NCBI GenBank assembly: GCA_964036045.1
Contig: OZ038384.1
Location: forward strand, 49,142,843 to 49,206,842
Direction: 5' to 3'
From: Eutreptiella sp. 'Long Island Sound 2002'
Taxonomy: Eukaryota; Euglenozoa; Euglenophyceae; Eutreptiales; Eutreptiaceae
Length of the DNA: 64,000 nucleotides
A program made the translations under genes and the position numbers. Shown one piece after another: positions 19,863 to 62,667 of this stretch. The notes beneath the pieces were generated by a model that saw only the letters and a list, made by a program, of their open reading frames with translations, was not told the DNA's origin and made no database searches. Numbering within the stretch: the stretch's first letter is position 1; every line of letters starts with the position of its first letter.

Positions 19863-19904
19863 AGTGAGCGCCCCGCAGCGACGCCCCGCACAGCAACACA
19901 ACAC

Positions 19905-30198: not shown

Positions 30199-30265
<67 letters not shown>
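30194..30265. repeat. (TA)n tract
   Basis: Interrupted TA/TATG dinucleotide repeat separating the MITE from the left end of the G1 element. Confidence 0.9.
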
Positions 30266-30272
30266 GGGGAGA

Positions 30273-37365: not shown

Positions 37366-40299
37366 GTGGGGGTCGGCATCTCCGGGCAGGCAAGAAGTGG
37401 GGAGGAGACTCCCGCAAGGGTACTCCTGCCCGCAAGAGTGAGATTCAATCGAATCTTGGACCCTGAGGCCCAGACAGAGGTCCAAGTGCAACCAAAATGG
37501 GGAGATGGAAGCAAGCAACCCGCAAGAGTACTCGTGGATACCGGATCTCAGAGTGCCCTAATCCGAAGAGGGCTGATCAGGGAGAAATTCCGGTACAAGA
37601 GTACTGAACCCAAGGCCTTCTATATGGCGGATGATGCCACCAAACTAAGTGGAGGTGACTACCAAGCAAATGCAATGTGTGTAATGGCGGGCAAGAAGAA
37701 GGGTGGTGGTGGGGGTTGGGAGGTGATCCAGTTTGGGGTGATTCCCTACCAGGCTGAGATCAGCTATGACCTGGTACTGGGCCATCCCGAACTGTGGAAC
37801 CTGGCGGTGGGATTTGCCCCTCGCATGGAAAAGGGGAAGCTCTTCACCCATGCCCCCCAGCCTGAGTACTACCTGATAGATTTTGACGCTAGTTTGGTCA
37901 GTGACCCCATCACCTTGAAGAAGCTCCCGCGGGGACACAAGGTATGCCCCCCTGAGCTTGGGAATGTGCCAACATTGGTGGCAGATGAACGGTTGTATTT
38001 TGAGGAGCAGGAAGAAGCCCATGAGGAAGGGAGTGCCCACGAAGTGGATGAAGCTGGAAGCGAGAAGGATGCACCCCAAATCAGGGGTGGCATAGCACCT
38101 CGATGGAGAGCACCAAAACCTAAACCGCAAAACTATGAGCCCATTGCGCAAGAACCATCGAGGCCCACAAGGAGATCACAAGCAAGACCCGACTTCTGCC
38201 AAGCAGGGATACCCCTTCCCAAAAGGGCAATCAGACCTATAGAGATGGTGGACAGACTGGGCAGGGGAACGTTGCCCACCTACGTGGCCATGCGACAAAT
38301 TTCGTCGGCCACAAAAGCGGCCCCATGCTGCAAAAATGAGCATTGGGGGCTGACACGGGAACAATTTGAAGTGGCTGTACGTACAGCCAGGGTACGGCCT
38401 GACTTTGATGTCTTTGACCGTTCTCTAAGCTTGGCTAAAGCCCCTTTGGGTTTCCTACCTTCACAAGATGCCTTCAAAGAACCCTGGTCAGGCAGGGGAG
38501 TCCTCTGGATATGCGGGCCCTATGAGCAAATGGGCCGCATTGTGAAGAAGATGAAGGAGGAACCCGTGCGAGCCCTAGTGGTTGCCCCGGCCTGGGAGTG
38601 GAAGCCCTGGTGGGCTGAGCTATGTGCTGTCACCCTGAATATGTGGGAGTTTCCAGACCCAAGTACGGGCACAAGGCTATATCAGGACGATGAGGGGAGG
38701 CAAGTCCCTCAACGGGCTTGGAAAAGCGTACTATGCCTAGTGGATACCCTGAACGTGACCATGGACCAAGGCAAGAGAACAAGAGACACCCTCACCATCC
38801 GGATGCTACGTGCCGTGGAAATGGAGGAGACGCATGAGCTTCGGGAGGCCATCTGGGAGATCAAGCACCAAGAGGCCAAGAGAACACAAGTGAGGTCTGT
38901 CATTGGGGCAGAAGGTGAATACCGAGACCCGGAAGCACTCAAGCTCAAGAACAAGCTATTGGAAGAATATGGCAAGGATGTATTGTCAGGAGACGTATCC
39001 CTTGGAGTTGGGTTACCCTCAGACTTCCGTGGTCCCTATGGAGAGGCGCATATACAGTTGGCCAAAGACCATAAACCTAAATGGCAGAAGCCCTTTCACC
39101 TGACCGGTGAACGAGAAGAGGTGATGAAGGCTCTGGTGGATGACCTTATCCAAGAGCACTTCATTGAGGAGTGCCATTCGGGCTTATGGGCCAACAACGC
39201 CTTCCCGGTGCCTAAGCCTGGCTCTAAAGCCAAGATCCCGTGGAGATTGGTGGATGACTATCGCTATTTGAATGAACAAACTGTATTGGATGAACACCCA
39301 CTACCACTGATAGAGAAGGTGATCCAGGACCAAGGCCTGAACCGGATCTTCACCATCATTGACCCAAACCAAGGTTTTCATCAGAAACCCCTAGCACCTG
39401 AGTCCCGACCTTGTACCGCCTTCTGGGTGGGAAGGAAGCGGTATCAATGGAAGGTTATGCCCATGGGCATAAAGAATGCTGGGGCATTCTTCCAGCAGAT
39501 GATGGATGAGATCCTGGGTGACTTGGAGGGGATACATTGCTATATTGACGATATGCTGGTGGGATCCCGTGGGAAGAGTGACAAGGAGATGTTCACCAAG
39601 CACTACAATGACGTACGGAGAGTCCTAGAGCAACTACGCAAGTTCAAGATCATCGCTGAGACAAGCAAGGTGGACTTCTTCACCCGTAGTGTCCAATTCT
39701 GTGGACACATCTTGGAAGGCGGGACCCGCAAGCCGGCCCCAGGGAGGTTGATGGCAGTGGAAAGGTGGGAGAAGCCCACCAACATCCGAGGCTTACGAGG
39801 ATTCCTGGGACTATGCAATTTCTATTCCCACTATGTCAAGGACTACGCCAAGATTGCAGGCCCACTCATGGATTGCCTTAAGGAAATATCCAAGGATAAG
39901 AACCGCAGCTCTCGAGTACGGGTCCGATGGACCCTGGAAGCGGATAAAAGTTTTGGAGAACTAAAGAAAGCGATCCTCACCGTGGTACCTCTGCAGATTA
40001 TTGACTATTCAAAGAGTTTTCATATGGATACTGATGCAAGCAAGTACGCGGTTGGGGCTGTGCTACAACAAGTGGGAGAAGATGGCAACCGGAGGCCTAT
40101 TGCCTTCCACAGCCGCAAGCTGACTGGATCTCAAATCAATTGGAGCACCCGGGAGAAGGAATGCTATGCCATCATTAGTGCCCTGGAGAAATGGGGTTCC
40201 TACATTGGCCGGGCTAGAGTGGATGTGAGAACGGACCACCTCACCCTGAAGGCATGGAACCACGAGAACATCCGCAGTGCCCAGGGACCCTCCCCGTGA
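37366..40299 (+). CDS. pol: G1 pol: protease, Dam-like module, RT, RNase H
   Basis: 977 codons in the gag frame. The first codon is GTG, so it relies on the upstream frame. Aspartic protease: VLVDTGSQSALI (D58). Residues ~330-420 hold a module matching the Dam-like region of DIRS-type elements: FDVFDRSLSLA, DAFKEPW, LWICGPYEQM (CGPY at 383-386 in place of NPPF/NPPY), then ALVVAPAWEWKPWW. Reverse transcriptase: FTIIDPNQGFHQ and CYIDDMLVGS (YIDD at 726-729), preceded by PWRLVDDYRYLN. RNase H: HMDTDASKYAVGA (from ~887), REKECYAI and VRTDHLTLK. The frame ends in TGA exactly where related elements have Arg (GPSP-stop-QAGW), and coding sense resumes immediately after it. Confidence 0.85.
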   Translation: MGVGISGQARSGEETPARVLLPARVRFNRILDPEAQTEVQVQPKWGDGSKQPARVLVDTGSQSALIRRGLIREKFRYKSTEPKAFYMADDATKLSGGDYQANAMCVMAGKKKGGGGGWEVIQFGVIPYQAEISYDLVLGHPELWNLAVGFAPRMEKGKLFTHAPQPEYYLIDFDASLVSDPITLKKLPRGHKVCPPELGNVPTLVADERLYFEEQEEAHEEGSAHEVDEAGSEKDAPQIRGGIAPRWRAPKPKPQNYEPIAQEPSRPTRRSQARPDFCQAGIPLPKRAIRPIEMVDRLGRGTLPTYVAMRQISSATKAAPCCKNEHWGLTREQFEVAVRTARVRPDFDVFDRSLSLAKAPLGFLPSQDAFKEPWSGRGVLWICGPYEQMGRIVKKMKEEPVRALVVAPAWEWKPWWAELCAVTLNMWEFPDPSTGTRLYQDDEGRQVPQRAWKSVLCLVDTLNVTMDQGKRTRDTLTIRMLRAVEMEETHELREAIWEIKHQEAKRTQVRSVIGAEGEYRDPEALKLKNKLLEEYGKDVLSGDVSLGVGLPSDFRGPYGEAHIQLAKDHKPKWQKPFHLTGEREEVMKALVDDLIQEHFIEECHSGLWANNAFPVPKPGSKAKIPWRLVDDYRYLNEQTVLDEHPLPLIEKVIQDQGLNRIFTIIDPNQGFHQKPLAPESRPCTAFWVGRKRYQWKVMPMGIKNAGAFFQQMMDEILGDLEGIHCYIDDMLVGSRGKSDKEMFTKHYNDVRRVLEQLRKFKIIAETSKVDFFTRSVQFCGHILEGGTRKPAPGRLMAVERWEKPTNIRGLRGFLGLCNFYSHYVKDYAKIAGPLMDCLKEISKDKNRSSRVRVRWTLEADKSFGELKKAILTVVPLQIIDYSKSFHMDTDASKYAVGAVLQQVGEDGNRRPIAFHSRKLTGSQINWSTREKECYAIISALEKWGSYIGRARVDVRTDHLTLKAWNHENIRSAQGPSP

Positions 40300-41734
40300 C
40301 AAGCAGGGTGGCATGAATTCCGTTCCAGGTTTGACTTGCATTTGCACTACCTCAAGGGAAGCGCTAACTCAGTGGCAGACCCCCTGTCTCGCCTAGGAGA
40401 GGAGGATGAGAGCCTAGACAAGGGTAGGTGCCACTGGGTATACCCGTCAGATCCCTCTCTATTTGATGTGGGGATTCATGGAAGTGAGGGATCAACCCTT
40501 GAAGTGCCAAAGATGAAGGAGAAAGAAATGGAGGCGGAGAAGACATGCGTGTACCAATTGGGGGTTGGGCCTGTTACAAGCCTCAGCAAGGGGATATTTG
40601 CGGGAGACTGGAGCCAAGAATACCCCCGTTGCCCCCAATTTGGGAAGCTCTGGTGGAGATGTCAAAATGGGAACTTCCCAGAAGACACAAGGATAGTGGG
40701 GGGTAAGCTTGTGCAAGGGGGGCGCTACCTAGTTCCTAGGTCACTTGCTAGTAAGGCGGTCCAATATCTCCATGACCTTCTAGATGTGGGGTCCAGTGGC
40801 AAGGCAAAATTGCGACAAGCAATCAAGGATCGCATGGTGAGCAACCTCATTGAGCCCCTTAGTGACGCCGCAGTGGAGGGGTGTTCCCACTGCCAAATGC
40901 ACAAGGTACCTACCCGTGCCCCACCTGGTGGTTGCATTCCCGGGCCTATGCCACACCGAGCTGGGCACCACATCTCTGTTGATGTTTTCAAATTTCCTCT
41001 TGTGGAGAGAGATGGACAGACCTATGACCAGCTCTACGTGGTAACGGATGTGTTATCCAACTTTGCCATTGCGGCACCCACTCTTAGTGTGGGGTTTGAT
41101 AGTCAACGGGCTGTGGAAGTCCTATGGGATAGTTGGATATACCCATTTGGGATCCCAGCCCAGATCCGGACTGATCGTGGGGCAAGAATTTGTGGCAGAA
41201 TGGTTCAAGGCCTTTTGCAAGAGGGCTGGAGCTATCCATGCCCTATCGCAAGCGGGCCGACACCAATCGAATGGCAAGGTGGAGATCATGGGGAAACTTA
41301 TCCGTAAGGCCATCAATGTGGCAACCACCCTAGATCCGGAACGGACATGGGTGGAGGTCGTGAAGGAGTGCTTGCATGCACTCCACTGCCTCCCAGGTCC
41401 TACAGGGTACTCCCCGTATCAATTGATGACGGGAAGACAACCGACCCCTTTGGGGGAACCACCCCAAGGTGGGGTAGAGGAGGCTCCTGACATCGCTTCC
41501 TTCTTCCAAAAACGGAAGGAAATGGGGCGGCTAGCTATGGAGGCCGCCCGCAAGGTGCATGAGGAACAAGAGGACAAGTACAACCGACGAAGAGGAGCCA
41601 CCATGGAGTATGCCAAAGGGCAGCTAGTATGGGTGAAGCGGTTACGACCGGCTGTAGGAGGCAAGGACCATCCCTATTGGCTGGGACCTTTCACAGTGGT
41701 GTGCCAAGTGAGCCAAAACTCCTACTCCGTCTAA
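40300..41734 (+). pseudogene. G1 RNase H tail and integrase (frameshifted)
   Basis: After the TGA the frame continues with FDLHLHYLKGSANSVADPLSR, the conserved end of the RNase H/connection region. The integrase follows: zinc-binding HH-CC (CSHCQMHK), first catalytic Asp in HISVDVFKF (~40980), second in IRTDRG (~41170), then a one-base shift within GGGGCAAG at about 41178. Coding sense continues one frame over with EFVAEWFKAF and NGKVEIMGKL (catalytic Glu ~41282), followed by GYSPYQLMTGRQPTPLG. TAA at 41732 ends it just before the chromodomain. The sequence indicates a once-active DDE integrase now broken. Confidence 0.75.
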
Positions 41735-42112
41735 TCGGGTGAAGAAGGAGTGAAGGACTTCCATGTGGATCATTTGTGCCCATACGTATCTCTAGTTGGG
41801 AGGACTATCCCGCTAGAGTATACCCGTGACCTCGAAAACGTGCGTGCCAAGGCCATAGAGACTCCATCGTACCCGGTGCGAGAGATCCTTGGGCACCGGA
41901 CACGAGAAGATGGGAGCCTTGAGTTCTGTACGCGCTGGCAAGGGTTCACGAAAGATTGGGATACTTGGGAACCCGTTGAGAGCTTTGTGCCTGCGTACAA
42001 TGTGAGGTGGAGGGACTATGTCAATCAACAAGGGTTGAAGATCGACGTCGCCAAGCAACTACCGCCTCCGAAGAACCCGAAGCCTAGAGGGGTTGCCGGA
42101 GAGGAGCAATAG
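41735..42112 (+). CDS. G1 chromodomain
   Basis: Same frame as the distal integrase. It contains DFHVDHLCPY and then a chromodomain, YPVREILGHRTREDGSLEF, continuing CTRWQGFTKDWDTWEPVESF. The aromatic cage positions (W, W, E) are present. Chromodomains on chromovirus integrases bias integration toward marked heterochromatin. The frame ends in TAG at 42110. Confidence 0.8.
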   Translation, partial: SGEEGVKDFHVDHLCPYVSLVGRTIPLEYTRDLENVRAKAIETPSYPVREILGHRTREDGSLEFCTRWQGFTKDWDTWEPVESFVPAYNVRWRDYVNQQGLKIDVAKQLPPPKNPKPRGVAGEEQ

Positions 42113-42173
42113 GTGCTGTGTCACTCCACTATGTGTGGCCCCTTTGTACAGATACCACCTCTCCTGCCACATC

Positions 42174-42518
42174 ATGAGCGCCATGACCACCACAGCTAGT
42201 GGCAACACGTGCTCAATGATGCCACCCATCACCTTGGCCGCCGAGGGTAGCACCCTGGCCGAGAACCTAGCCGTCTACTTCCGCGCCCAGGATGCAGAAC
42301 TCCCAACTGTGAAGCAGATAGCCCTGGACATCTGCCAAGCCCCCTCCAGGCATGAGAGAGGCAAACCCTGCAGCTATTGCAGGTGCCTAGCAGTGGCCAT
42401 ACAACACTACCACATCACCCAGCAACCCTGCGCATGTGGGCAATGTTGCAACTTTTCCAAGCTGCCATACTCGTGCAGGGGGAGGATGGTTGCGGACATG
42501 GAGATGGATGAGGCCTAA
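42174..42518 (+). CDS. Small Cys-rich ORF downstream of G1 pol
   Basis: ATG at 42174, about 114 codons. The C-terminal half has a dense Cys/His pattern (PCSYCRCLAVAIQHYH and PCACGQCCNFSKLPYSC) that could bind zinc. The N-terminus is Thr/Met/Ala-rich. No family is recognised. It may be an accessory gene of the element or noncoding. Confidence 0.35.
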   Translation: MSAMTTTASGNTCSMMPPITLAAEGSTLAENLAVYFRAQDAELPTVKQIALDICQAPSRHERGKPCSYCRCLAVAIQHYHITQQPCACGQCCNFSKLPYSCRGRMVADMEMDEA

Positions 42519-42581
42519 TCCCCACACCCGTTGCACCCATGACTATGCCCTCCTACCTACAGCCCAGTGTTGAATTTTGTC

Positions 42582-43935
42582 ATGTCCTATATCTGTGTGA
42601 CCCCTCTCACTATGAACCTCAACAACCCTGAGTTGGCGGTGGCACAAGAGCCTGTGCTCGAGGCCCTGCGAGCCCTCCACACTGGGGTGACCCGCAAGCC
42701 CCAGCGTATTGCGGCGTTTTGGGCACAAGCCCGCGCCGATCCCTCCATCCGGGCAGCCCTGGTCACAGAGGCTGCACCTATCACTCTACTGGAGCCCCTG
42801 CAGCACCCCAAATCTCCCGAGGGCGGTCATGTGACTGCACCACGCTTTGCCGACTTGGCCAGCGTGGAGCGGCGTGCACACTCCCCATCCCCGGTGCCAA
42901 AAGGACCTATCATTAGCCACCTACGTCCTCGCAGCTCCCTCAAGCCCCCAATCAGCTGGTTTGGACACCCCAGGGGCTGCCCTGCGTGCCCCCTCAGCCC
43001 TACAGTGAAGGAGGAGAGTACCCCCTCTGGATCCCCTCTCTACAATCCCGGGGACGCCGCTATCAAGGCAGAGGAGCAGTGGCTGGACTCCTCCCAACTG
43101 GAGTCCAGGCCCGACTTCGAGCTGTAGGAAGCGCCGGCCTACGAACCCTCAGGGCCTAGTATGAAGAAAGAGGAGGAGGAGGTCGAACCCCCAGCATCCC
43201 CACTCTACGATCCCACCGATGATGAGGAGATTAAAAGTGAAAGACAACCCGTGAGGGACTATTGCCCTTCCTCACCAGCCCCAGTCAAAATGGAGGAGAC
43301 GGTGGTGAAGACAGAGCCCATGGCTACCATCAAAGTGGAGGAGGAGTGGCTGGACTCCTCGCAGCTGGAACTCCGCCCTAGCCCACCACCATACCCCTCC
43401 CAGGCTGAGCTACGCCGGTTGGCTGGAGAACTCCTGAACCGGATCGGGGAGATGGGGGAATCGGAGTCTCCACAGCCCTACCCACCCTCCACACAGGTCA
43501 CACCACCAAAGGGGGGGGATGACGCTGCACTTGCCCTAATGTAGGAGCCCCACACCCCCGCAGCAGAAAGCTCTGCGAACCCCTGGGAGCCCCCGACGTG
43601 GACCTCCCTGCTATCACTTCTCGATGACTTCACGAGGCCCTCGCTGAAGTGGCTCACGGAGGTGGATGACATGGAGTGGCTGGAGCAATATGCTCCCATT
43701 GACTTGCATGCCCCCCCGGCTAATGTGAACGGAACCCCCTCCCCGGCTATGGGTGACGTCTATGGGGAGGGGGACCAACGGGAAGGGGGAACCCCAGGGT
43801 GGACGGTAGATAAGCAAGAAGGACAGGACAGTGAACACCCGACCACCCTGGGTGGCGAGAAGGAAAGGGGGGAGAAGAGGGAGAGGGAAGAGACTGAGAA
43901 CCCCCACCCTGAGGAACACCTCTGGGCTTACTCCA
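42582..43935 (+). pseudogene. G1 extra ORF with SUMO-consensus motifs (left part)
   Basis: A single frame, broken by TAG at 43125 and 43542, runs from ATG 42582 to the insertion at 43936. It carries six psi-K-x-E motifs: TVKEES, AIKAEE, EIKSER, PVKMEE, VVKTEP and TIKVEE. A repeated unit is seen (SPLYNPGD...IKAEEQWLDSSQLE and again IKVEEEWLDSSQLE). The rest is acidic, Pro/Ser-rich and probably disordered, followed by WLTEVDDMEWLEQYAP. The sense resumes after the insertion at 44576-44948. Additional ORFs downstream of pol occur in several large plant gypsy lineages; I do not recognise this one. Confidence 0.5.
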
Positions 43936-44575
43936 GTAGGTAGGTAGGTAGGTGCACTCGGTCGTGGAGAGGCGCCCCATGGTTCCCCCTGGCGTCGCCC
44001 CTGTGACGAACAGGAAGAGGCTCCGCGCGTGAAGAGGGGAGGCGGCTTACTTCCCGCTAGACCTGACTGTTGGCCCCCAACAAAGCGGCCCCGGGCAACA
44101 CCGGGAGGGCTGATCGCTGCCAGCGTGACGTGCTTGTCTCGCCGGGAGGGTGTGCCCCCGTGCTTGCGCACGTCCCCTCCTTTGGGCGGAACCCTAGAGG
44201 TTCACCAGACTTCCTGGCGTATCCCGTTCCCAAGGCATGCATGCACATTCTTGGTACTAGGGTTCCGAGGCGCTTGGGTGTCGCACGCTCCACCTCGAGT
44301 CCCAAAGCAGCGCAGGCCTTAGGATGCAGCCTTACCCCCGGTCTCCGGATCTCGTTTGGCCGGGTCACCTGCATGGCACGGGCTGCCTCAGTGCCAGGGC
44401 TGTGGGCACTGGGTTTCCTACTGTTGTGCGGCGTTTGTGTTTGGGTCCGGTTGGCGGTTGGGTGTGGGTTTTGTTAACCCCGCCAGTCCTGGCTGGGGTC
44501 TTGGGTGGGTGTGTTTGGACACGGTTTGTGGTGTTGTCCCTCTAGTGTCGGCTGTTTGTGGTGTTCGTGGTTGGG
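43936..44575. mobile_element. 640-bp (TAGG)n-bordered insertion with 161-bp target duplication
   Basis: It begins GTAGGTAGGTAGGTAGGTGC and ends TTCGTGGTTGGG. The preceding 161 bp (43775-43935) are repeated directly after it (44576-44736), with one substitution seen. Read on the minus strand it ends in (ACCT)n, just like the 17282-24706 insertion. GC-rich; no domain is recognised in its ORFs. Confidence 0.7.
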
Positions 44576-44948
44576 CCAACGGGAAGGGGGAACCCCAGGG
44601 TGGACGGTAGATAAGCAAGAAGGACAGGACAGTGAACACCCGACCACCCTGGGTGGCGAGAAGAAAAGGGGGGAGAAGAGGGAGAGGGAAGAGACTGAGA
44701 ACCCCCACCCTGAGGAACACCTCTGGGCTTACTCCATTGAAGAGGAAAACAAGAAGAAGGTCAAGATCCAAGTCACCTTTGAAGTGAGCCGGGAGCTATG
44801 GGAGACGGGGGACACCGAGGCAAGAGTGATTGTGGGGCAAGGTATCTATGATGGGCTCCTCGACTTTTGGAGGAGTAGCCAAGCCAAGAGGAGACACGAT
44901 GATTTCGTGGAGTTTCTGGGACAAGGCTTAGAGAAGGAGAGTGAGTGA
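44576..44948 (+). pseudogene. G1 extra ORF (right part)
   Basis: The first 161 bp duplicate 43775-43935; the reading then continues HLWAYSIEEENKKKVKIQV to GLLDFWRSSQAKRRHDDF and a TGA at 44946. Joined to the left part, it gives the C-terminus of the extra protein, a compact charged segment. Confidence 0.5.
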
Positions 44949-47044
44949 CAATTAGGGAAGGGGGTGGGGGCCCTAGAGGAGCAAACCCCCACCCCAACTC
45001 TAACCGCTTGGCATAAGAGATGTATGAAGTGAAGGGGAAGAGACAAGCAAGAGAGTGAGGTTGAGGGACGAACTGCCTAAGGGCACAAGCTTCATATTTC
45101 CCTTACCGCACCTCTAACCATGCCCTCGTGCCTATGCTTTCCCTTCCGGGATATTTCAATTCCATGCCGGACAGTGGCATCCTCCGCCACCGGTGCTCTA
45201 CTATCATGTCAAGCCTATATGAAGCCATGCGAAAATGAGCGAGCCAAAGTGTAACCTATGTCTTCGACGATGCAAGGGATGAACAAGGGAGCAAGGGAAG
45301 GGTCAAGCAGCATGTACAAGGGCTGGAGGTCAAGGGACAACGTGCCTAAGGGCCTATGCTTCTTATTTCCCTTACCTCATCGCCATCAATCAGCCCAAGT
45401 GGGTGCATGTACCTTAAGGGCCCTAACCCGGTCTCCCGGACCATTGTGCAACCCAAGAGTATGTATGAGTGTGATTGGTGTGTGTATGCACAAGCAAGAG
45501 GTGCGTGGCCAAGGAGTGCATGCCAAGGTGTTGTATGTGTAGCGCGTGTGTGCCTAGACCCAAACTACCTAGAGCCTTTGGGAGAAGGGAGGAGAGATGT
45601 GCTAACCGCGTGGAACGCACCGCTTATCGAACAGGTCAATCTGTGATCAGCGCCCCTTTTTGCCTGGCATGGGGACTTTGCGCCAATCACCCTACCTTCC
45701 CACCTGCAAGCAGATCCCACCTGCAGTTAACGGAGGGCTAAATCTCCGCGATGGCAAAGATGACGGACCCCTCGCAAAGCAAGGGCTGTGTGTTGTTTGC
45801 TGTGCGTAGTGTGTTGTATGTGTGGTATGTCTGGTGTATGTGTGGCATGCGTGGACAAGTAAAGGCCTGATTGACGAGGACCGTTACTCACCCCTAATCG
45901 AATACCTTCAACCTGTGCGAAGTGAAAAGAGGGTGAGCGGATGTGGGGAGAGGAAGAAAGATATATATACCCCATATATATATTTATACATGTCTATGCC
46001 CGTGCAACACATGACGAGATGCATTGTGCGACACTCACGGCGAATGCATTCAAGAGTGACATGCCATGAACGAATGCATACACAAATGGAATGCCATGCG
46101 CTTGGGTTTGTGCTATTCTATTTGATGAGTTTACCTTGGTGATTGAGGGTGTGAACCCTCGGGAAAAGAAGAAAAAGGGGGGGGGGCAGCGTCCCTCACC
46201 CCCAGGCACGAGAGCCTTTACCTCCCAGGGGTGAGGAAGGCTGAGAGAGGAAAACAGGGGGTAGGGGAGGGAAACTAGGGTCCAAGGATGAAAAACAAAA
46301 GGGGGAGAACCCGATTGGACGGCCCCACAACATGGGGACAGACAGGGTGAACCTGCCCCTCCACGCTAGCTATGAGCCAACCCAATCAAGTCCAAAAAGG
46401 GAAAGAGAGGGGTCCCGGGGATCTCCTTGTTTGTTTGTTAAAGTGAGAGACCGAAGGTGGGGAATGGTTTAACTCACGGTCGCATGGAGGGGGGGTGGAC
46501 CCAAGAAAACAAAAACCGGGGGGGGGGTTTACATACCTCACCGAGCTCATCGGGAAACCTGAAGAGAGAAGGGTGAGGAGATGAAGAGAAGGAGGAGAGG
46601 GAACACACGAGCGAGTTCAACTTAGTCGCGAGTCACATGCCCCACTCCCATCTAGCTCAGTGGCGGTCCGTTGATTTGTCGAGCTATATATTTGTTGTTA
46701 ATGCAACGATCATTTTAGTTACCTACACGAATACTCCATGCCATGTGCAAATACTCACCGACATTTTTCTGAGCGAGTGCACTATGCCATGAAGAAATAG
46801 GTGTGGACCGTTTTCTAAGCGAACACATCATGCCATGAGCAGAGCAGAGCAAAAGCGGAAGGAAGCATATTATTTTTCTTTGTCGTTGTTGTTGTTTTTT
46901 GAAATCTGATTTGAGGCTTGGGCTTGCTTAAGTCCCTGATGAAACCCCGCATGGCCATGCCCAAGTTTATCCATTTTGATCCTCCTGGCTCCGGCCTGCG
47001 AGGAGAGAGGCGAGAAGATGACAGGGGGGCAGCGGAGAGGGCAG
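44949..47044 (+). other. 3' noncoding region of G1
   Basis: Purine-rich sequence with short ORFs only, several G runs and AAGGGAAGAGA-type tracts. A purine-rich candidate polypurine tract (GACAGGGGGGCAGCGGAGAG) precedes the right LTR. A stretch near 45640 (GTGATCAGCGCCCCTTTT) resembles 56578 in the 3' region of G2. Confidence 0.5.
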
Positions 47045-47054
47045 CCAGGGGAGA

Positions 47055-47724
47055 TGGCATACCAGAATTTCTGGGATTCTTGATTTCCCTGCAAGGCGAG
47101 AAAGAGAGAGAGAAAGGGTTAGGGTTAGGGTTAGGACAAGGAAAGGGGACAGCGTGTAAGCATGGAATGCAACGAATGCATGAAGATGTGAACACATGCA
47201 CACCCCTTCCCCTTTTTCCTTTGGGGTTTTGGCATCTAATTGTGTCCTAACCTCCTATAGGTGGGGCCCACCGCTATGTATGAATTTGTTTGCTCTAGGG
47301 GGAAGTGGAGTGGGCCCACCGAGCAAGGGAAGGGGGCAAGGGAAAAAAGCAAAGCCACATGCTCATGTGGCACCAAACTGTTTTCAACACCCCCAAGTTG
47401 TTTAGGGGAAGAGAGGCCCCCACCCTGAACTTTCCGAGGTCCCTTCTATATATGGTTTGGTCTACCTTTGTTTGTACGCTTTGAGATTTCTGATAGTGGG
47501 CCAAGGGCCAACTACTTTTCTCGTGGAACCGGGGGAGGGAACCCACGAACACAAAGCGAAGCAAGCAAGGGAAGGGAAGGCAACACTGTTTTGATTAGGG
47601 AATTCATTGAGTTTCTGGAAATTCCACTGGGGGTGACCTGCAGAGGGAAGGAAAGGGAAGCAGGGTGAGAAGGGCAAGGGAGGTGTGGGCACTTGTAGTG
47701 CGCATACCGGAAGAATATATTTTT
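47055..47724 (+). repeat. 3' LTR of G1, first segment
   Basis: Matches 30273-30940 almost base for base, including the TTAGGG-like repeat at 47115-47135. It is cut at 47724 by the G2 insertion. Confidence 0.85.
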
Positions 47725-48378
47725 GGGAGTAAGAAAAAGTCACTGCCATGTCTTTCTTGGAGGGCTTGATCCAGGCTAAGCCCCCCTTAAAACCCTTTGT
47801 TGATGCTCAGACAAACTTAAGTGTTTTTATCTCTCTTTTGTTGCCTAAAGTGCACTTTCTCAAAGTAACTAGGGTTGTGACCCTAGCCCCCCCCATGAAG
47901 TTCACCCCTACCACTCAACTGAGCGGAGGTACCTTCCTTCATGGAGGACATACCAAAATAAACCCCTATACTCAATTGTTTCTACCACTTATTGTGGTCC
48001 TACTTTGTAACTGTTTCTGAATTCAGTTGCTTGGCCAAGTCATTTTCTGTGTGGTCCTGACATCCATGCCCCTCAGTCCTAACCAGCACCATTTCACCCA
48101 AAAGAGTGCACATGAAGTGCCTATTGCAACCTCTGAGGCAAGAGTCAGACCAATTTTCATATAAAACCTTTTTCCTTATCCATTTGTGATTGAATCTATG
48201 TGCATAAACCTGCTTTGTCTATCTGCAGCCCTTCTGTGTTACACTGGATTCCAAAACCAATCATTGATTCGATCCACATCCTGTCCTTGCTCTACTTGCT
48301 GCTTTGTTTGGGGTCTTCAACTACAAAACCTGCAGGACTACATCAAAATATCTAGGGCATAATTCAAGGACATCTTTC
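47725..48378 (+). repeat. 5' LTR of G2
   Basis: GGGAGTAAGAAAAAG to CATCTTTC. It lacks ~60 bp (after ACCAAAATAAA, about 47960) that are present in the 3' LTR and in copy 1, so it carries a private deletion. Confidence 0.85.
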
Positions 48379-48393
48379 CGGTAGCAGAGACAG
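48379..48393 (+). promoter_or_regulatory. Primer-binding site of G2 (initiator tRNA-Met-like)
   Basis: CGGTAGCAGAGACAG immediately follows the LTR and resembles the TGGTATCAGAGC start of initiator-tRNA-Met primer-binding sites at 9 of 12 positions. This supports the LTR boundary. Confidence 0.55.
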
Positions 48394-48460
48394 TCCCTTG
48401 TGACCTTTTGAACCGACCCTGAGAAGAAGTGCAGAACAAAAGCTCAACAACAAGTTCATC

Positions 48461-50638
48461 ATGTCCACGCCAAGCGTCAGGACCTGGCCTATCCGAACTG
48501 TCCAAGTACAAATGGGCAGCATGGCCCACCCAATGAGTGAACCACCTCACCGAGCTCCACATCATCTCAGTGGCGCATCTGGGTCCCAAGGAGATCCAGA
48601 ACGCAGAAGGGCGGAAGAGAATAAAGGCCTTACCACCGAGGCCTTAGCAGCACACGGTGGAGACAGCTTCAGTCACCTCCACAGACGTGTGGCTGCTTCA
48701 GTATCAAGATCCAATTGTCCAGCTTCATCCTCAACTGCCATTGAAGGACCTGAGGAGTATGAGAAGCTGAAGAAAAAGATGGATGAGTACATCATGCATG
48801 AGGAGTACTATAAATCCATCCGTGGGGAAGATGGAGAGGAGCCATTGGCTGTACATGGATCCAGACCACGTACAGATCTAGGGTCCTACGCACACTCTGG
48901 TCCTCCGTCCACTGCATCCCTGCCAAGACGACTAAGACCTGAGTATCCAACCCCAAGGGCTCCCGAAGTGGGCCCGACACGAGTCGAAGAACAACATCAT
49001 CCAAGGCCAACCTACGGTGCCCTGGATCACACGGCCGAACTGTTGGCCAAACTCCTGTCTGGATCAGAAGATCCAGATGTGACGGCCCTATCAGAGGCCA
49101 TTAAGGCAAAGCTGGGTATTGCAGAACCCTTACCCAAGCCTGAGTTGCCCTCTCTCTCTCCAGGGCTGAGTACCCTGACCGAAGATCTCAAGAGATCAAG
49201 GGTCTCAAGGCTGTTGCCCAAGGTCACCTGCCCCAGCCCCTTTCACCCCCGTGCCAGGACTGTGCCTATGGCTGATCTACAGGACGTGCCTGTCACAGAG
49301 AGTGAGAGAAGAGGGCTGTCAGCCCTGGCCCCTCTTGCCGGCGTGTTGCCTTCAGGCCTAACTCCGGGGGGTGGGAAGACGGGCAGACCAATTGCCCAGG
49401 CGAACATCCAGCTGGAACTGCCGGAGTTCGACCCCAAAAATCTGCCTGAATGGGCAGAAGAATTTGCAGAGTTCCTTTTGTTGACTGGCCAATCCCATGT
49501 GGATGTGGCCACCAAATGTTCACTGCTAAAACGCTCATGCAAAAAGAAATTTTTGCAAAAACAGGTCAAACAGATTGTGAAAACCTGTTCCACCTGGGCA
49601 GAGGTACTCCTGAGGTTAGAGAAAACATTCCCAGTCTATGAGACTGACCTCAGCGTACGCACACAGATCGAGGAGCTACCTATGCTCCCGGAGTTTCCAT
49701 CCGCTGCGGGAATTTCTGAGTATGTGTGCGACTTGGAGTACTTATTTTCGAGGATGAACGTAGGCTCCTACGGAGCCACTGAGCCCCACCTGTGGCTCAT
49801 GAGTAAGATCCCCCAGCGTACGTGGGATGATTGCCGCTCCACCTCTGAGAGGAAGAGCAGGACCCACTCGTACGATACACTGGTGGATCTCTTGATTGAG
49901 CTAGCTCTTGAGAGAGAGAACGACTCCCACATGGAGAAGTTCCTCAAGAAGCATTTGGGACGAGGTGGTACCCCTACCCCCGAACGTGGCGAGGGGAAGG
50001 GGCATAAAAATCCCACAAACACCAACCAGGGAGGTGGTAAAGGGAGGGGCAACCTACGTGCCATGAACAAGGTACAACCTGATGCAGGCACACCCCCCCT
50101 GTTCTACTGCCGACCTGTCAATGACAAGGGGGGACCTTGTCATGCCTCTGACTGCGATCTCCGCAGTGGCTGTATGCTGCAGATGAGACGTCAGCAGCAC
50201 ACCAAAGATGGGAAACAAGTGACCCATCAGGACCACTTCAGGTGTACCATCACCTGTGGTTACTGTGGCAAACGTCGTCACTACGAGGACGAATGCCACA
50301 TGAAGAAACGCGAGAGTGACAAACTCAAGCGTCAGGAGGCGGAGCGCCAGAAGACCCAGACGCCCGCCAGAAATCCCCCGAATGGGGATAAAGGTAAAGG
50401 AGGTGGCAAGGGGGGTGGCAAAACTGGACCCCCTAACCCCCAGAGGCGCTCATCAGCGCCCGTTGCTACACCAACTCCTGCTGCTACACCCGCTCCTGCC
50501 GCAGGTGTCCCCCAGAAGCGCCCCAAAGGGGATAACGCCACCCCTGAGGGGAATAATTCTAAGAAGAGGCGCTTGGCCTGGATGGCCAAGTCCCTCATGG
50601 CTGCAGGGGTGGATGTGAAATTCCCTGATGAGGAATAG
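48461..50638 (+). CDS. gag: G2 Gag polyprotein
   Basis: 725 codons from ATG to TAG. Residues ~1-320 are low complexity. The capsid-like region spans ~320-500, with LPEWAEEFAEFLLLTGQ, KCSLLKRSCKKKFLQKQV and TWAEVLLRLEKTFP. A perfect CCHC zinc knuckle, CGYCGKRRHYEDEC (C-x2-C-x4-H-x4-C), is at ~598-611. The C-terminus is Lys/Pro/Ala-rich. Gag forms the particle and packages the element RNA. The TAG is followed by GGGGGCGGC and an open frame encoding the protease, so readthrough could make Gag-Pol. Confidence 0.85.
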   Translation: MSTPSVRTWPIRTVQVQMGSMAHPMSEPPHRAPHHLSGASGSQGDPERRRAEENKGLTTEALAAHGGDSFSHLHRRVAASVSRSNCPASSSTAIEGPEEYEKLKKKMDEYIMHEEYYKSIRGEDGEEPLAVHGSRPRTDLGSYAHSGPPSTASLPRRLRPEYPTPRAPEVGPTRVEEQHHPRPTYGALDHTAELLAKLLSGSEDPDVTALSEAIKAKLGIAEPLPKPELPSLSPGLSTLTEDLKRSRVSRLLPKVTCPSPFHPRARTVPMADLQDVPVTESERRGLSALAPLAGVLPSGLTPGGGKTGRPIAQANIQLELPEFDPKNLPEWAEEFAEFLLLTGQSHVDVATKCSLLKRSCKKKFLQKQVKQIVKTCSTWAEVLLRLEKTFPVYETDLSVRTQIEELPMLPEFPSAAGISEYVCDLEYLFSRMNVGSYGATEPHLWLMSKIPQRTWDDCRSTSERKSRTHSYDTLVDLLIELALERENDSHMEKFLKKHLGRGGTPTPERGEGKGHKNPTNTNQGGGKGRGNLRAMNKVQPDAGTPPLFYCRPVNDKGGPCHASDCDLRSGCMLQMRRQQHTKDGKQVTHQDHFRCTITCGYCGKRRHYEDECHMKKRESDKLKRQEAERQKTQTPARNPPNGDKGKGGGKGGGKTGPPNPQRRSSAPVATPTPAATPAPAAGVPQKRPKGDNATPEGNNSKKRRLAWMAKSLMAAGVDVKFPDEE

Positions 50639-50779
50639 GGGGGCGGCTCCGAAGAGGAGGACTTGGTTTTCTGGATCCTCGTGAAAATCGGGGATCAGGT
50701 TTTTCGAGCAGTGCTTGATACCGGTGCAACACTTTCCATAGTGGCCCGGCGCCTGCTTAAAACTCTTCAGGAAAACTAA
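50639..50779 (+). CDS. G2 protease, N-terminal half
   Basis: In the gag frame after TAG: EEEDLVFWILVKIGDQVF, then VLDTGATLSIVARRLLKTL. DTGA is the aspartic-protease active site. The frame stops at TAA (50777), while the rest of the protease (GVDVTICLG, FDIVIGTDFLRR) is one base over, so a +1 shift around AAC-TAA is needed. Confidence 0.7.
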   Translation, partial: GGGSEEEDLVFWILVKIGDQVFRAVLDTGATLSIVARRLLKTLQEN

Positions 50780-50783
50780 GACC

Positions 50784-53297
50784 GTGGCCATAAGAGTAGG
50801 GGATGGGCGTACCATCCATTCCTTGGGGGGGGTCGATGTGACCATATGTCTGGGCGACGAAACCGTGACCCAACACTGCAGAGTGTTGGACACTGACGCC
50901 TTTGACATCGTCATTGGCACCGACTTTCTAAGAAGAAACCCCCAGGTAAAAATGCTGTCCCTACAGCGTCCTTACTCTTTGCACTGCGACTTTGGCAGTG
51001 GGCTATTCTCCGTTCCTTTGGAGCTGTCAGGACGAAAAGAGTCTGGGCTGCGCTACGCAGCCAAGACGAACTATCGTACTGAAAACTACCAACTGGCCCG
51101 TCATGTTCTCGAAAATGGACTGGCGGCCCTTCAGGTAAACCTGGATGAGATCCAGGTGGAATTGTTTGCGAGCCAACAACAGCACATCATGCAGTTGTAC
51201 TGCTCGAAACAAATGAACAATGCTTTCCGTTTCTTCTGGAAAGCAATGGGCCTAGCGTATGCTAACCCTCCCTTCTCCCTGCTCGCGAAGGTTCTAACCA
51301 AGATCGCTTATGAGGGAGGAAGGGTTGTTATGTGCACCCCTGACTGGGGTTGCTCTGGTGAACATGCTTACTGGCGCCGTATGCTTGACCGAATGACCGT
51401 GGGAAGAGTGCAACTCCCCGACGGCCCCATCTATGTGCCTGAGGACTCAGACACAGCTATGCAGGCCCCTGAGTGGGCCAGTTTCCTGTCCATCATCGAT
51501 GGATCTCTCAATCCTGTACCCCTGTGTGACCTGGACCAGGTGCTACTAAAAGAGGTCATGGCCGAAAATCGTGGCCTGACCCTTTATGATCTCAAAAATC
51601 GATCTCCTGAGCACCTATCTGCCGTACTTACAGGGTGTGAGTCTCCTGATGACTATCTGGAACCTGCAGCTGTAAAGGAGGATGCTGACGACCAACTGTC
51701 TGAGATCGCCAGCACTATTCCTTCTGTTGATCCCAGCTGTGTTGACCTAAAACATAGTGCTTTCCTGGCCCAGCTGTTGCTAGAGGAGGTAGATCTAGAG
51801 TCAACCTCTGAACCCGCTTCCTCTGTTGGGAGACCAGTGCTACACATGCAGCCTGTGCACACAGGTGAACCCGTGGCCCGGAGTGCTGATGCTCTGGCAC
51901 GGCCTGCTGCTAATAACATGCCATTGTCTGAGCATGACACTCAAGAACTCCGACGGCTGTTGTACCTGAAGGCCGAAGGTATTGAGCGCCAAGAGCGGCT
52001 GCAATACCTCAGACAGACCTGGAAATACTCCATCTGGTCTGAGGAGGACGATGAGTCCTATACGCTGCCTGATCCTGAGATACCTCTAGTGTATTCTCTA
52101 CACTATGGGCAGCAAAGTCCCCCTGAGTGGGACGATGGTACTGTACCTGCCGAAACTGCTGATCGGCATAAAAAGAAAGAACATGGAAAAAGCAACCTCC
52201 ATGCTGAGGAGGATTTCCTTCAGAAACTCGAGAGTCTTAACCTTGACCCCCGCCTGAAGAAACTGCTGATAACCTATGAGGAGGTGTTCGGCGCCTTGCC
52301 GCCTCCCCTTTCTTGTAAAAAACTGGTCCAGATGGACCTGAAATTGAAACCGGAATTTGAAAAGACGCGAGTGAGGCGTCGTCCCTACCCCAATCCACAG
52401 GAACAGGTCCAAGAAATCGAGCGCCAGATCCAAGAATGCATTGATGCTGGCCTCGTTGAGGAGTATAAACACGGGGACTATCCCCATCACTGCAGCCCCT
52501 GTTTCCTTGTTGCTAAACCAGGGTCGACTGCCCTACGTCTTGTTGTAGACTATGGTGAGGTCAACAAGAAAACCCAAAACCACTCAGGGAGTATTCCTAA
52601 CATGGAAAACACCCTGGAGCGTATTGCCAAATGCAGGTATAAGACCAAAATGGACAAACGCTCTGGTTTCTGGCAGGTTGACCTAACCACCGCAGCTCAG
52701 GAGCTGCTGGCCTTTATAACCCCTAAGGGTCGTGTCTTCAAGTGGAAGGTTATGCCTTTCGGGGTGGCAAATGCCCCAGCGCTCTTCCAGGAGCTTATGA
52801 ACAAAATTTTGTACATACTGAGGCGCAGGCCTCTAGTACAAGAGTTGATTTCTCGGGGTGCAGAAATGGAGGCTCACATCGACGACGTGAGTTTGGGTAC
52901 TAATACCAAAGAGGACCATGTCCTTCTCCTCCGTGAATTTTGCACTGTCTGTCAAGAAAACCATCTCCGAATCAAACTCGAAAAATGTGAGTTTATGAAA
53001 GAGGAGATGGAGTATTTGGGTTTCGACGTGGGGTATGGCATGTGGAAACCAGCCGCGTCTAAGATGCAGCCCCTACAGGACATGCAGATTCGCGATGACC
53101 CTAAGAAGGGTCTACACGATGTGAGGAGTTTTGTGGGCGCCTGTAATTTCTATCGGCGTCACATCAACAATTTTACTTACTCCTCTGCACCCCTCACTGA
53201 CCTGATCAAGAAAACTACTCCCTGGAGGTGGACCTCCAGAGAGGAAGAGTGTTTCCAGGAGTTGAAGAAGAAGATTGCCTCCTCCAACTGCCTTTGA
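50784..53297 (+). CDS. pol: G2 pol: protease end, Dam-like module, RT
   Basis: 837 codons. The first codon is GTG, so it depends on the upstream frame. Residues 1-55 finish the aspartic protease (FDIVIGTDFLRRNP). Residues ~122-225 are a Dam-like module: IQVELFASQQQHIM, then AYANPPFSLLAKVLTKI (NPPF at 161-164), GRVVMCTPDW and RVQLPDGPIYVPE. DIRS-type elements have a comparable module downstream of RT/RNase H; here it precedes RT. Residues ~230-500 are an acidic linker. RT: RLVVDYGEVNKKT, KMDKRSGFWQVDL and VMPFGVANAPALFQELM; the catalytic box reads AHIDDVSLG, with His in place of the usual Tyr/Phe of YxDD. The frame ends in TGA at 53295, and RNase H continues in the same frame. Confidence 0.85.
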   Translation: MAIRVGDGRTIHSLGGVDVTICLGDETVTQHCRVLDTDAFDIVIGTDFLRRNPQVKMLSLQRPYSLHCDFGSGLFSVPLELSGRKESGLRYAAKTNYRTENYQLARHVLENGLAALQVNLDEIQVELFASQQQHIMQLYCSKQMNNAFRFFWKAMGLAYANPPFSLLAKVLTKIAYEGGRVVMCTPDWGCSGEHAYWRRMLDRMTVGRVQLPDGPIYVPEDSDTAMQAPEWASFLSIIDGSLNPVPLCDLDQVLLKEVMAENRGLTLYDLKNRSPEHLSAVLTGCESPDDYLEPAAVKEDADDQLSEIASTIPSVDPSCVDLKHSAFLAQLLLEEVDLESTSEPASSVGRPVLHMQPVHTGEPVARSADALARPAANNMPLSEHDTQELRRLLYLKAEGIERQERLQYLRQTWKYSIWSEEDDESYTLPDPEIPLVYSLHYGQQSPPEWDDGTVPAETADRHKKKEHGKSNLHAEEDFLQKLESLNLDPRLKKLLITYEEVFGALPPPLSCKKLVQMDLKLKPEFEKTRVRRRPYPNPQEQVQEIERQIQECIDAGLVEEYKHGDYPHHCSPCFLVAKPGSTALRLVVDYGEVNKKTQNHSGSIPNMENTLERIAKCRYKTKMDKRSGFWQVDLTTAAQELLAFITPKGRVFKWKVMPFGVANAPALFQELMNKILYILRRRPLVQELISRGAEMEAHIDDVSLGTNTKEDHVLLLREFCTVCQENHLRIKLEKCEFMKEEMEYLGFDVGYGMWKPAASKMQPLQDMQIRDDPKKGLHDVRSFVGACNFYRRHINNFTYSSAPLTDLIKKTTPWRWTSREEECFQELKKKIASSNCL

Positions 53298-55442
53298 GTG
53301 CCCCGCCCTGAGGGCGAGATAGTCCTGATCACTGATGCCAGTGATGTAGGGGGGGGAGGTACGATCTATCAATGGCAGGAGCTTAACCCCGCTGAACTAA
53401 CCCACTGCCATTATCGTACTACTGGACTGAACCGTGATGGTTCTTTGAAACATGACTATCCTACCAGTGAGTGGCGACTGGTGCCACTGGGACACTGGAA
53501 TTGGAAATGGAACCAAGCGCGTTCCAACTACAGCACCTATGACCAGGAACTCCTGGCCGGTATGTTGGTGCTATCGTCACAATCTCGACTCCTGGGATCT
53601 AACCCTATTGTCTGGCTGTGTGACCAGGAGCCTGTGAATTTTTTTCAGAAGGGCCCACCACCAGAAAAAGCAAAGCTAAAACGGTGGTGGACTTACCTGA
53701 GCCAGTTCAGGCTGACAGTGCATCATATCCCGGGTATTAAGAATGAACTGTCTGACTATATATCGCGCAACAACTTCGATGCGCTTATTGGTGAGAGCTC
53801 TGAGGCGCTCGCCAAAGAGGCTTTCCAGCGTATGGATGTCCAGCTTGACCTGTCCATGCGCACTGCTGGAATCCTGGAGGGTTGGAGTCTAACCGACTAT
53901 CAGTCAGAGTATGAAGAAATACTCCAAATCCTCAGGACTGGTCTCGAACCCCGTGTGATTGACGGGCACCAGTGGTATAAAAACAATCAGTACCTCTTCT
54001 ACGAGGACCGAATTGTTGTGCCTGAGGCACGACCGGATGGGTGCCTACAGTGGTCCCATCTCAGTTCTGGTCACACTGGCGCTAATTGCTCAGTGGACTT
54101 CTTCCGTGAGTGTTTCTACTCTAGTCTAACCCTGACTGAACTGAGGTCCCGTATGCAGACCATTGTGGATGCTTGTGGCTGTCATGCCAGCAAGCAGAGC
54201 GACAGTAGGGATAGGGGCCTGATCTCCAGCTTACCCATACCCTATTGTGCTAACTCTCTTCTCTACGTGGATTACATCCACGGCCTACCACGCTTTGGCG
54301 GCTATGATAATTGCCTCGTGGTCACCTGTGGTCTATCGCGCTTCACCCGTGTGTTCCCTTGCAATAAGAAAATCACAGGTGAGCAGACTGTAAAAATGTT
54401 GGTCGAACAATGGTTCGAACCCTATGGAGCACCTAAGCAGGTGCACTCTGATGAAGATGTACGCATCCGCAGTGACACTGGGTGGTACAAACGAGTGCTG
54501 AATGCCCTCAACGTGGAGGTAACCACAGGTGTGCCCTATACTCACACGTCTAACCCTCTCTGTGAGAGACAGAATCGTGTGGTGGAGCAAAACTTAAGAA
54601 TCCTGATGAAACAGGAGCGCACCAAGGACTGGGTACGCCTAGTGCCCTGGGCAGTTCTGTCCATGAACTCACAGCGGAGTTCTTCTACGGGTTTCACCCC
54701 CCACGAACTGTTCCATGGAGGACGACCTGCTTGGTTCTTCAAAACCCCCTTTCCTGAGGACTTCAAGAGCCCTGTGGGAGATTGGCTGGAACACAAGCAG
54801 TCTCTGGCTAACCAGGCTGGTACTAACCTGAGGCACATTCGTGACCGTGAACAGAGCCGACGGAACCGCCTACGGCGACCTGCCAGCTTCAAGGTTGGTG
54901 ACCTTGTTTTGGTGCACCATTCACGCCTACCCTCCTGGCCACGTAACTGCCTACAGGACCCTTACTTTGGACCCTATCGTATCATCAGGATAGATGGATC
55001 CAGGATCCATGTCAGGTGCAGTCCACGTCTAGGTGGTGAACTGCTGTGTGCACCTAAGCAGTTGAGGCACTATCACTCCCCTGACGACTTGTCTTGGGAT
55101 GAGTGGCGCCTCAGCGACAGTGAGATTGAACGTATAGACCTAGAGAACGCTGCCAGTCCAGAGGAGGCAGACGAACTCCAAGAGATGACCGCCGATGAGA
55201 TGGCAGTCGACGGTTACTACGTGGTTGCAGGTATTGCTCGCCACGAGTATAAACAGGGCTGGAAATTCCTTACCCTGTGGGATGGCTATGGGTTGTCTGA
55301 GGCGACCTGGGAACCTATGTCAGCCTTCATACAACCCGATGGGAGTATCAACCCCATCTTCCGCACTTACCTCGTTGAGAACAACGAGGGGCAGCTCCTA
55401 ACCCGTGCTGAGACTATGTCCCAGCGTAAGAAGCGAAACTAA
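53298..55442 (+). CDS. pol: G2 RNase H, integrase and chromodomain
   Basis: 714 codons in frame with RT across one TGA. RNase H: VLITDASDVGGGG, YDQELLAGMLVL, WLCDQEPVNF and LSDYISRN. Integrase: zinc region SSGHTGANC to DACGCHASK, first catalytic Asp in LLYVDYIHGL (D325), second in QVHSDEDVR (D385), Glu in NPLCERQNRV (E423), 37 residues apart. The GPY-like area reads LQDPYFGPYRIIRIDG. The C-terminal chromodomain is at ~637-695 (YYVVAGIARHEYKQGW, FLTLWDGYGLSEATWEPM). All catalytic residues are present, so only the stop and shift separate this copy from a complete frame. It ends at TAA 55440. Confidence 0.88.
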   Translation: MPRPEGEIVLITDASDVGGGGTIYQWQELNPAELTHCHYRTTGLNRDGSLKHDYPTSEWRLVPLGHWNWKWNQARSNYSTYDQELLAGMLVLSSQSRLLGSNPIVWLCDQEPVNFFQKGPPPEKAKLKRWWTYLSQFRLTVHHIPGIKNELSDYISRNNFDALIGESSEALAKEAFQRMDVQLDLSMRTAGILEGWSLTDYQSEYEEILQILRTGLEPRVIDGHQWYKNNQYLFYEDRIVVPEARPDGCLQWSHLSSGHTGANCSVDFFRECFYSSLTLTELRSRMQTIVDACGCHASKQSDSRDRGLISSLPIPYCANSLLYVDYIHGLPRFGGYDNCLVVTCGLSRFTRVFPCNKKITGEQTVKMLVEQWFEPYGAPKQVHSDEDVRIRSDTGWYKRVLNALNVEVTTGVPYTHTSNPLCERQNRVVEQNLRILMKQERTKDWVRLVPWAVLSMNSQRSSSTGFTPHELFHGGRPAWFFKTPFPEDFKSPVGDWLEHKQSLANQAGTNLRHIRDREQSRRNRLRRPASFKVGDLVLVHHSRLPSWPRNCLQDPYFGPYRIIRIDGSRIHVRCSPRLGGELLCAPKQLRHYHSPDDLSWDEWRLSDSEIERIDLENAASPEEADELQEMTADEMAVDGYYVVAGIARHEYKQGWKFLTLWDGYGLSEATWEPMSAFIQPDGSINPIFRTYLVENNEGQLLTRAETMSQRKKRN

Positions 55443-61354: not shown

Positions 61355-62667
<1,313 letters not shown>

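Follow-up and report, generated by a model that had tools for sequence, protein, structure and literature searches.

The closest described counterparts of the domain considered here, a Dam-like segment in the pol genes of two distantly related gypsy-type retrotransposon families (G1 and G2) lying in a 64,000-nucleotide stretch of contig OZ038384.1 from Eutreptiella sp. 'Long Island Sound 2002' (hereafter the window), include that of DIRS elements. Passages of PMC3783388 and PMC3266345 describe a Dam domain in these elements, its role being called unknown in PMC3266345, and characterise them by a tyrosine recombinase and by the lack of an aspartic protease and a DDE integrase. Like the DIRS1-like methyltransferase domain (PF05869), the segment appears to be a Dam-family domain of a retrotransposon pol, and the DIRS order of reverse transcriptase (RT), RNase H and methyltransferase equals that of those gypsy relatives in which Dam stands behind RNase H. 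In contrast to the elements described in these passages, G1 and G2 have a protease, an integrase and, as shown for G2, long terminal repeats (LTRs), and their domain is placed ahead of RT. Matches to rve were obtained in both families, and the tyrosine recombinase that replaces the integrase in DIRS was listed in none of the open reading frames (ORFs) scanned.

According to passages of PMC5890265, KnitGypsy-Dnmt3 of Klebsormidium nitens also carries a DNA methyltransferase in a Gypsy pol, with purifying selection reported; this enzyme, however, is a cytosine-C5 Dnmt3 and is called structurally unrelated to Dam. Algal DNA transposons with ParB and a DNA methyltransferase, predicted to form N4-methylcytosine or N6-methyladenine, are another case of a transposon-carried methyltransferase, although passages of PMC12477816 place it in a separate gene of the DNA transposon Sola1-1 and not in a retrotransposon pol. 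Phage Dams (phage T1 Dam, phrog_111, TIGR01712) share the core motifs and are among the best viral fold matches, whereas they are free-standing phage enzymes with a tree group of their own. The closest solved fold is that of PCIF1, a cap-specific adenosine N6-methyltransferase with an NPPF motif (passages of PMC8868631), but this is a cellular RNA enzyme and its sequence support here consists of two weak Pfam rows.

Searches of an open-licence library turned up no clear account of a Dam domain in Ty3/gypsy elements, although one passage, which we take to be a summary and not such an account, leaves some doubt; subscription papers, Repbase reports and preprints lay outside this scope and may contain one. 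The domain occupies three different places in the pols of such elements, its active site is intact in some and altered in others, and a cytosine-type domain accompanies it in a few cases. This makes two questions testable, namely where the DIRS methyltransferase came from and whether an element needs methylation or just the fold. Both active-site states occur in multi-copy families of one genome. The motif, seemingly intact in G2 and changed in G1, also raises the question of why retrotransposons keep a DNA- or RNA-methylating fold.

Homology and position of the domain

The preliminary description of the window had proposed a Dam-like segment between protease and RT in both pol genes, reading NPPF at residues 161-164 of the G2 pol ORF and CGPY in G1. 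The placement is borne out by the positions of the DTG motif and RVT_1 and the motifs by the sequence itself, and as to identity, the segment matches the phage Dams as well as the Pfam Dam and TIGR01712 families. A profile made from the Dam segments of 15 relatives, G1 and G2 being left out, matched the G2 pol at E 5.8e-31 and the G1 pol at E 6.9e-27, and these were the only frames matched among the 695 stop-to-stop segments of 50 or more residues in the window. The same profile matched all nine phage Dams used (4.8e-12 to 2.2e-4), 98 of 106 G2-family proteins and also P0109 (G1 itself), P0155, P0127 and P0136, with no match among P0160-P0191. With hhalign, the 15 retro-element Dams aligned to the nine phage Dams with a probability of 98.4%, an E-value of 4.3e-15 and a score of 99.3, the maximum over 40 shuffles being 19.2. 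Scores for G1 versus G2 (40.9), G2 versus the phage Dams (35.0) and G1 versus the phage Dams (34.2) likewise exceeded the maxima of 40 column shuffles each (25.9, 20.8 and 23.9, respectively). A pairwise blastp search related the G1 and G2 segments at E 5e-7, and the core motifs shared by retro-element and phage Dams are lD..AS..N, W and NPP[YF]S.

Curated families point in the same direction. In a 20-row alignment, 19 rows matched Pfam Dam and 16 matched TIGR01712 at E <=1 (best 1.6e-11 and 1.9e-11), and Pfam Dam was found in 29 of the 41 rows of the G2-family alignment, full-length relatives among them (best 1.1e-4). For G2 of the window the Pfam Dam E-value was 0.016 with the whole ORF and 0.0016 with the Dam piece, both under the curated cut-off. 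The G1 piece matched P0114, which itself passes Pfam Dam, at 2.7e-17 with phmmer, and phrog_111, the PHROG family best matched by phage T1 Dam, was the only one listed for either piece (G1 0.007, G2 0.085). Since G1 and G2 miss the curated cut-offs (for the G2 piece, 18.6-18.7 of 28.1 bits in Pfam Dam and 14.6 of 97.05 in TIGR01712), we term the segments Dam-homologous and not members under Pfam's rule; that they are Dam-homologous we consider, from these profile comparisons, almost certain. PDB sequence searches with single sequences and with the A3 profile gave nothing relevant. Scans of viral contigs with the G2-family alignment, the G1 RT, the G2 RT and alignment A4 confirmed no relatives, these being weak tests whose patterns were mostly outside the Dam core (two patterns, G2-family alignment) or single (A4). 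An RNase-H-like identity, one option of the preliminary description, is rejected, no such profile or fold match being listed for the segment.

Relatives were gathered by a search with G1 residues 312-830, which at a limit of E 1e-10 gave 83 pol proteins (7994 scored). A search with just the Dam piece of G1 matched, besides G1 itself, 15 of the 52 proteins P0109-P0160 (E 2.7e-17 to 5.3e-6); these are the 15 relatives that make up the profile, and seven of them pass the Pfam Dam cut-off. In all, 19 of the 83 show a Dam signal, the 15 profile members included, and many of the proteins without it are fragments in which it could not have appeared. The domain lies between DTG and RT in G1, G2, P0116, P0121, P0122 and P0131, and upstream of RT in P0112, P0114 and P0120, where DTG was not found in the ORF; it stands upstream of DTG in P0124, P0130 and P0133 and behind RNase H in P0115, P0117, P0118, P0128 and P0158. 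The upstream position, regarded earlier as unexpected, is confirmed in G1 and G2 and occurs in other families as well. An integrase follows Dam in P0115 and P0158, and none is present in the P0117, P0118 and P0128 ORFs. P0122 combines a weak protease with Dam, RT, RNase H, integrase and, at 24.9 bits against a cut-off of 25.1, a chromodomain, all in a single ORF.

Additionally, the C-5 cytosine methyltransferase family PF00145 was found by Pfam in seven of the 22 relatives scanned, above the cut-off in P0128, P0151, P0152 and P0153 and below it in P0124, P0130 and P0139. Dam and PF00145 occur together in P0124, P0128 and P0130, both cut-offs being passed by P0128 only. Separately, the gypsy pol P0155 carries a dUTPase at its N-terminus and, ahead of RT, a stretch with a weak likeness to Dam.

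Fold, active site and likely role

We think it probable, for the proposal taken as a whole, that this Dam-homologous pol domain acts on the element's own nucleic acid. It would be made and packaged with RT as a part of pol. In the G2 type it would most likely methylate adenine at N6, either in new cDNA or in the RNA/DNA hybrid, and the incoming copy might thereby be marked, either for protection or for permissive chromatin, with which 6mA is linked in eukaryotes in passages of PMC12695648. In G1 and in G3, a type found at other loci of the same genome, the domain would most likely just bind nucleic acid or serve as a scaffold next to RT, without catalysis. Among the separate parts of this proposal, the G2-type domain is predicted with moderate confidence to be catalytically active, and we lean towards a G1/G3 domain that is non-catalytic but functional.

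The fold evidence covers the G2 domain. Its model, built on the 20-row alignment, reached a predicted local distance difference test score (pLDDT) of 88.4; it resembles PCIF1 among PDB structures and, in BFVD, N6-adenine methyltransferases of phages, so that the Rossmann-type match on which the preliminary description had staked its reading is present, and a Rossmann-type methyltransferase fold is predicted for the domain. For the NPPF type, the leading alternative is RNA methylation. An enzyme like PCIF1 would act on adenosines of the element's own transcript, next to the cap or internally, and would help it to be translated, to be packaged or to evade RNA sensing. We regard this as unlikely, because sequence profiles group the domain with phage DNA N6-adenine methyltransferases, and because eight of the 22 viral fold matches at E <=0.001 are named N-6-adenine-methyltransferase as against three named PCIF1 WW domain. 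PCIF1_WW was listed by Pfam in none of the 22 full relatives scanned, a PDB profile search matched no PCIF1 chain, and Pfam PF12237 was matched weakly by two of the 20 alignment rows (best E 0.036). The structure of a T1-type Dam is not known to have been solved, and the PDB ranking may be biased for this reason. If the G2-type domain is active, DNA seems a rather better candidate than RNA for its main substrate.

NPP[YF] is catalytic motif IV of N6-adenine methyltransferases. Passages of PMC8868631 are consistent with this. The motif is kept as NPP[FY] in 12 of 18 retro-element segments, G2 included, as the preliminary description required of related elements, and is altered in six. Exact NPPF stands in 58 of the 77 G2-family rows that cover the piece, the window row among them, and N, P, P and F together with several D, F and W columns are invariant across nine intact segments, which were chosen for intactness. 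The retention of NPP[FY] in diverse segments and this invariance speak against the view that the domain serves every family as a spacer of pol, be it structural or nucleic-acid-binding, with catalysis lost or irrelevant and the G2 NPPF just ancestral. That view gains from the six altered segments, from at least four changes of motif IV on the RT tree (17 labelled rows; the position of the domain changed at least three times) and from families with altered motifs that are open and constrained, as described below; we consider it somewhat improbable.

Copies in the genome, selection and history

The 2.28-Gb assembly that contains the window was searched for further copies. For the G2 Dam piece the best 150 of 29,886 first-look candidates were scored, 136 of them at 100% identity and many in long open frames; for the G1 piece, the best 150 of 17,292 comprised 27 rows at 73-100%, 8 at 42-47% and 115 at 33-38%. 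Of 54 loci read, 42 were left after dropping eight G2 loci, L046 and L047 (no domain found) and L045 and L064 (repeats). None of these 42 non-G2 loci, which include G1 of the window and were taken by rank or by our choice and not randomly, has NPP[FY]. Motif IV reads CGPY in 22 of 28 G1/G1b-like loci, with CGHY, CAPY, FRLY, WGAY, GGPY and CGQY once each, and CPPY in all 14 G3-type loci. The G1b domain is 45% identical to that of G1 and still has CGPY. Both the CGPY and the CPPY families include copies with long open frames, and at the G3 locus L049 a single open frame spans Dam, RT, RNase H and integrase.

The ratio of nonsynonymous to synonymous substitution rates (dN/dS) was considered for 13 pairs. 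It was 0.18 in the two pairs that, without being saturated, had the most synonymous change (dS 0.31 and 0.44): L049/L052 (27.5 synonymous and 19.5 nonsynonymous, Fisher p 1.9e-8) and L019/L036 (35.2 and 26.8, Fisher p 2.8e-10). L052 has lost RT, and the constraint in its pair may be partly old. The value of 0.14 for L052/L059 is unsafe (dS 2.7), and the eight G2 loci, all top hits with identical domain protein, offer no evidence through their 0 nonsynonymous differences. From the shared CGPY and CPPY together with the ratio of 0.18, the altered-motif families appear to have been held by selection at least during part of their history. The preliminary description was right that G1 lacks the catalytic-type motif, but its 'remnant' looks too weak a word given the shared motif and purifying selection. 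A private remnant of G1 is rejected, since CGPY or CPPY is common to several families and purifying selection is seen in two comparisons.

As a side observation, the G3-type derivatives L052-L054 (contigs C22, C26 and C23) keep Dam and have no RT in the 6 kb read. The L052 frame enters a 127-bp tandem array about where RT would start, and more such places lie close together on C22, C23 and C26.

In RT trees G1 grouped with its relatives (support 100/99) and G2 stood outside on a long branch; one RT tree that joins G2 to another long branch was flagged. In two Dam trees G2 grouped with P0115, P0117, P0118, P0124, P0130 and P0133 (support 96/97 and 96/99), and the nine phage rows formed a separate group (100/99). 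Three RT-tree arrangements were rejected for Dam in approximately unbiased (AU) tests (p 0.007, 0.012 and 0.002), the groups having been named after the trees were seen and the p values being uncorrected. Because the history of Dam differs from that of RT, module exchange is likely on these trees. A wider reading is tentative and we hold it to be possible but doubtful. The methyltransferase module (Dam, C5-type or both; beside protease, RT or integrase) would be an ancient, interchangeable component of a single Ty3/gypsy lineage, and DIRS would have inherited its Dam from such a gypsy pol and not afresh from phage, a point behind this being that the order RT, RNase H, Dam is already present in gypsy relatives. 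In several families the domain would be a conserved pseudoenzyme (motif IV Asn to Cys) still needed by reverse transcription.

Several results weigh against the proposal of a domain acting on the element's own nucleic acid, or against parts of its support. Pfam alone leaves G1 far short of the Dam cut-off (Dam is the sole family listed for the piece, E 0.13, 12.4 bits versus 28.1), the whole G1 ORF has no Dam match and none is listed for the G3 pol of L049, so that the assignment of G1 and G3 depends on the relatives' profile. AlphaFold with G2-family rows only gave a pLDDT of 41 and was discarded, the good model hinging on the 20-row alignment, and PCIF1, to which it comes closest among solved structures, is an RNA cap methyltransferase and not a DNA enzyme. 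A Dam clade of the six proteins without G2 was not rejected (AU p 0.145), nor was an RT grouping of G2 with the six clearly rejected (AU p 0.056). Between two G2 subfamilies (G2 compared with P0068), conservation of the Dam core, at 76%, falls short of that of the protease (90%) and RT (87%) but exceeds that of the linkers (51% and 65%). Five pairs gave no dN/dS value (L049/L059, L061/L059, L055/L059 and L042/L019 saturated; L042/L044 without synonymous change), and five others range from 0.28 to 1.2: L055/L049 0.28, L049/L061 0.37, L019/L034 0.48, L019/L024 0.60 (6 differences) and L019/L026 1.2 (5 differences). Dam is also absent in four of the eight relatives with long flanks on both sides (RT preceded by at least 350 residues and followed by at least 500), and hence is not essential to such elements.

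This patchy presence, the shifts in position, the incongruent trees and the ratios of 0.6 and 1.2 in the two very close G1 pairs would suit a passenger, a domain picked up by accident and passed around through module exchange that decays and brings the element no benefit. The ratio of 0.18, with its Fisher p values, in the two pairs of largest dS and the retention of CGPY between families 45% identical argue against such decay, and we judge a passenger to be very improbable.

Element anatomy and other features of the window

Feature coordinates are collected in Table 1. G2 is a Ty3/gypsy element, with the order protease, RT, RNase H and integrase, LTRs and a short target duplication. It is inserted into a second G1-type copy. 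The stretch 30265-33442 is matched by the first part of this copy, at 47047-47727, and by its continuation at 58855-61356; the G1-type repeats are 98.2% and 97.1% identical. This second copy (47047-61356) begins behind the first, and the two might represent a tandem G1 array formed by LTR recombination. The window copy of G2 is broken, with its protease out of frame and a stop at 53295, and longer-frame copies exist elsewhere in the genome. Its gag-like ORF has no Pfam domain above the cut-off, and gag-asp_proteas was matched by 25 of 41 rows of the G2-family alignment. Further Pfam values for G2 are 4.4e-10 for RT_RNaseH and 4.1e-6 for rve (27.4 bits, cut-off 32.6). The G1 order is protease, RT, RNase H, a weak integrase (rve 6e-6 at residues 207-295 of its ORF, Integrase_H2C2 0.032) and chromodomain. 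Chromodomains had been claimed for both families; that of G1 stands, but G2 remains under the cut-off (Chromo 0.025, 14.9 bits versus 25.1).

Table 1. Positions of the G1 and G2 features within the window
Feature	Position	Strand	Basis or remark
G1-type 5' region	30265..30945	+	second copy at 47047-47727; match resumes from 30941 at 58855
G1 pol ORF (protease DTG, Dam-like domain, RT, RNase H)	37366..40299	+	ORF list, Pfam
G1 protease DTG motif	37537-37545	+	inside pol ORF
G1 Dam-like domain, pol residues 320-470	38323..38775	+	relatives' profile
G1 motif IV position, CGPY replacing NPP[YF]	38512-38523	+	
G1 reverse transcriptase (RVT_1)	39208..39714	+	Pfam E 1.7e-25
G1 integrase ORF, H2C2 and rve both under Pfam cut-off	40336..41307	+	Pfam
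G1 chromodomain	41750..42112	+	Chromo 1.2e-7, passes cut-off (32.0 bits versus 25.1)
G2 LTR retrotransposon	47728-58854	+	direct repeats
G2 LTRs	47728-48378 and about 58144-58854	+	98.3% identical except one gap of about 59 bases
G2 target duplication TTGGG, 5 bp	47723-47727 and 58855-58859	+	
G2 gag-like ORF, 725 aa, named from position	48461..50638	+	ORF list
G2 aspartic-protease DTG	50717-50725	+	different frame from pol ORF, a frameshift in the window copy
G2 pol ORF	50784-53297	+	
G2 Dam-like methyltransferase domain, pol residues 91-253	51054..51542	+	relatives' profile
G2 NPPF, pol ORF residues 161-164	51264-51275	+	
G2 reverse transcriptase (RVT_1)	52512..53027	+	Pfam E 6.1e-29
G2 in-frame stop at RNase H start, window copy	53295..53297	+	
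G2 RNase H, integrase, weak chromodomain-like end	53298..55442	+	Pfam

A gag-like start occurs twice, at 33160-35721 and 61074-61649, the second copy passing into a TA repeat. In the window, an Rfam search at gathering thresholds gave nothing and the dinoflagellate spliced leader had 0 matches, and a Ulp1-type protease guessed by eye at 6905-8083 was dropped as it has no Pfam support. A 65-bp satellite of about 65 copies occupies 19886-24132, with long open frames across it and an AT skew of 0.9 over 18-24 kb. A 53-bp tandem repeat at 5719-6877 forms two oppositely oriented blocks of 15.4 and 6.5 copies, and an ORF on the minus strand at 3905-5410 has a SET-domain match just under the cut-off (21.7 of 22.4 bits).

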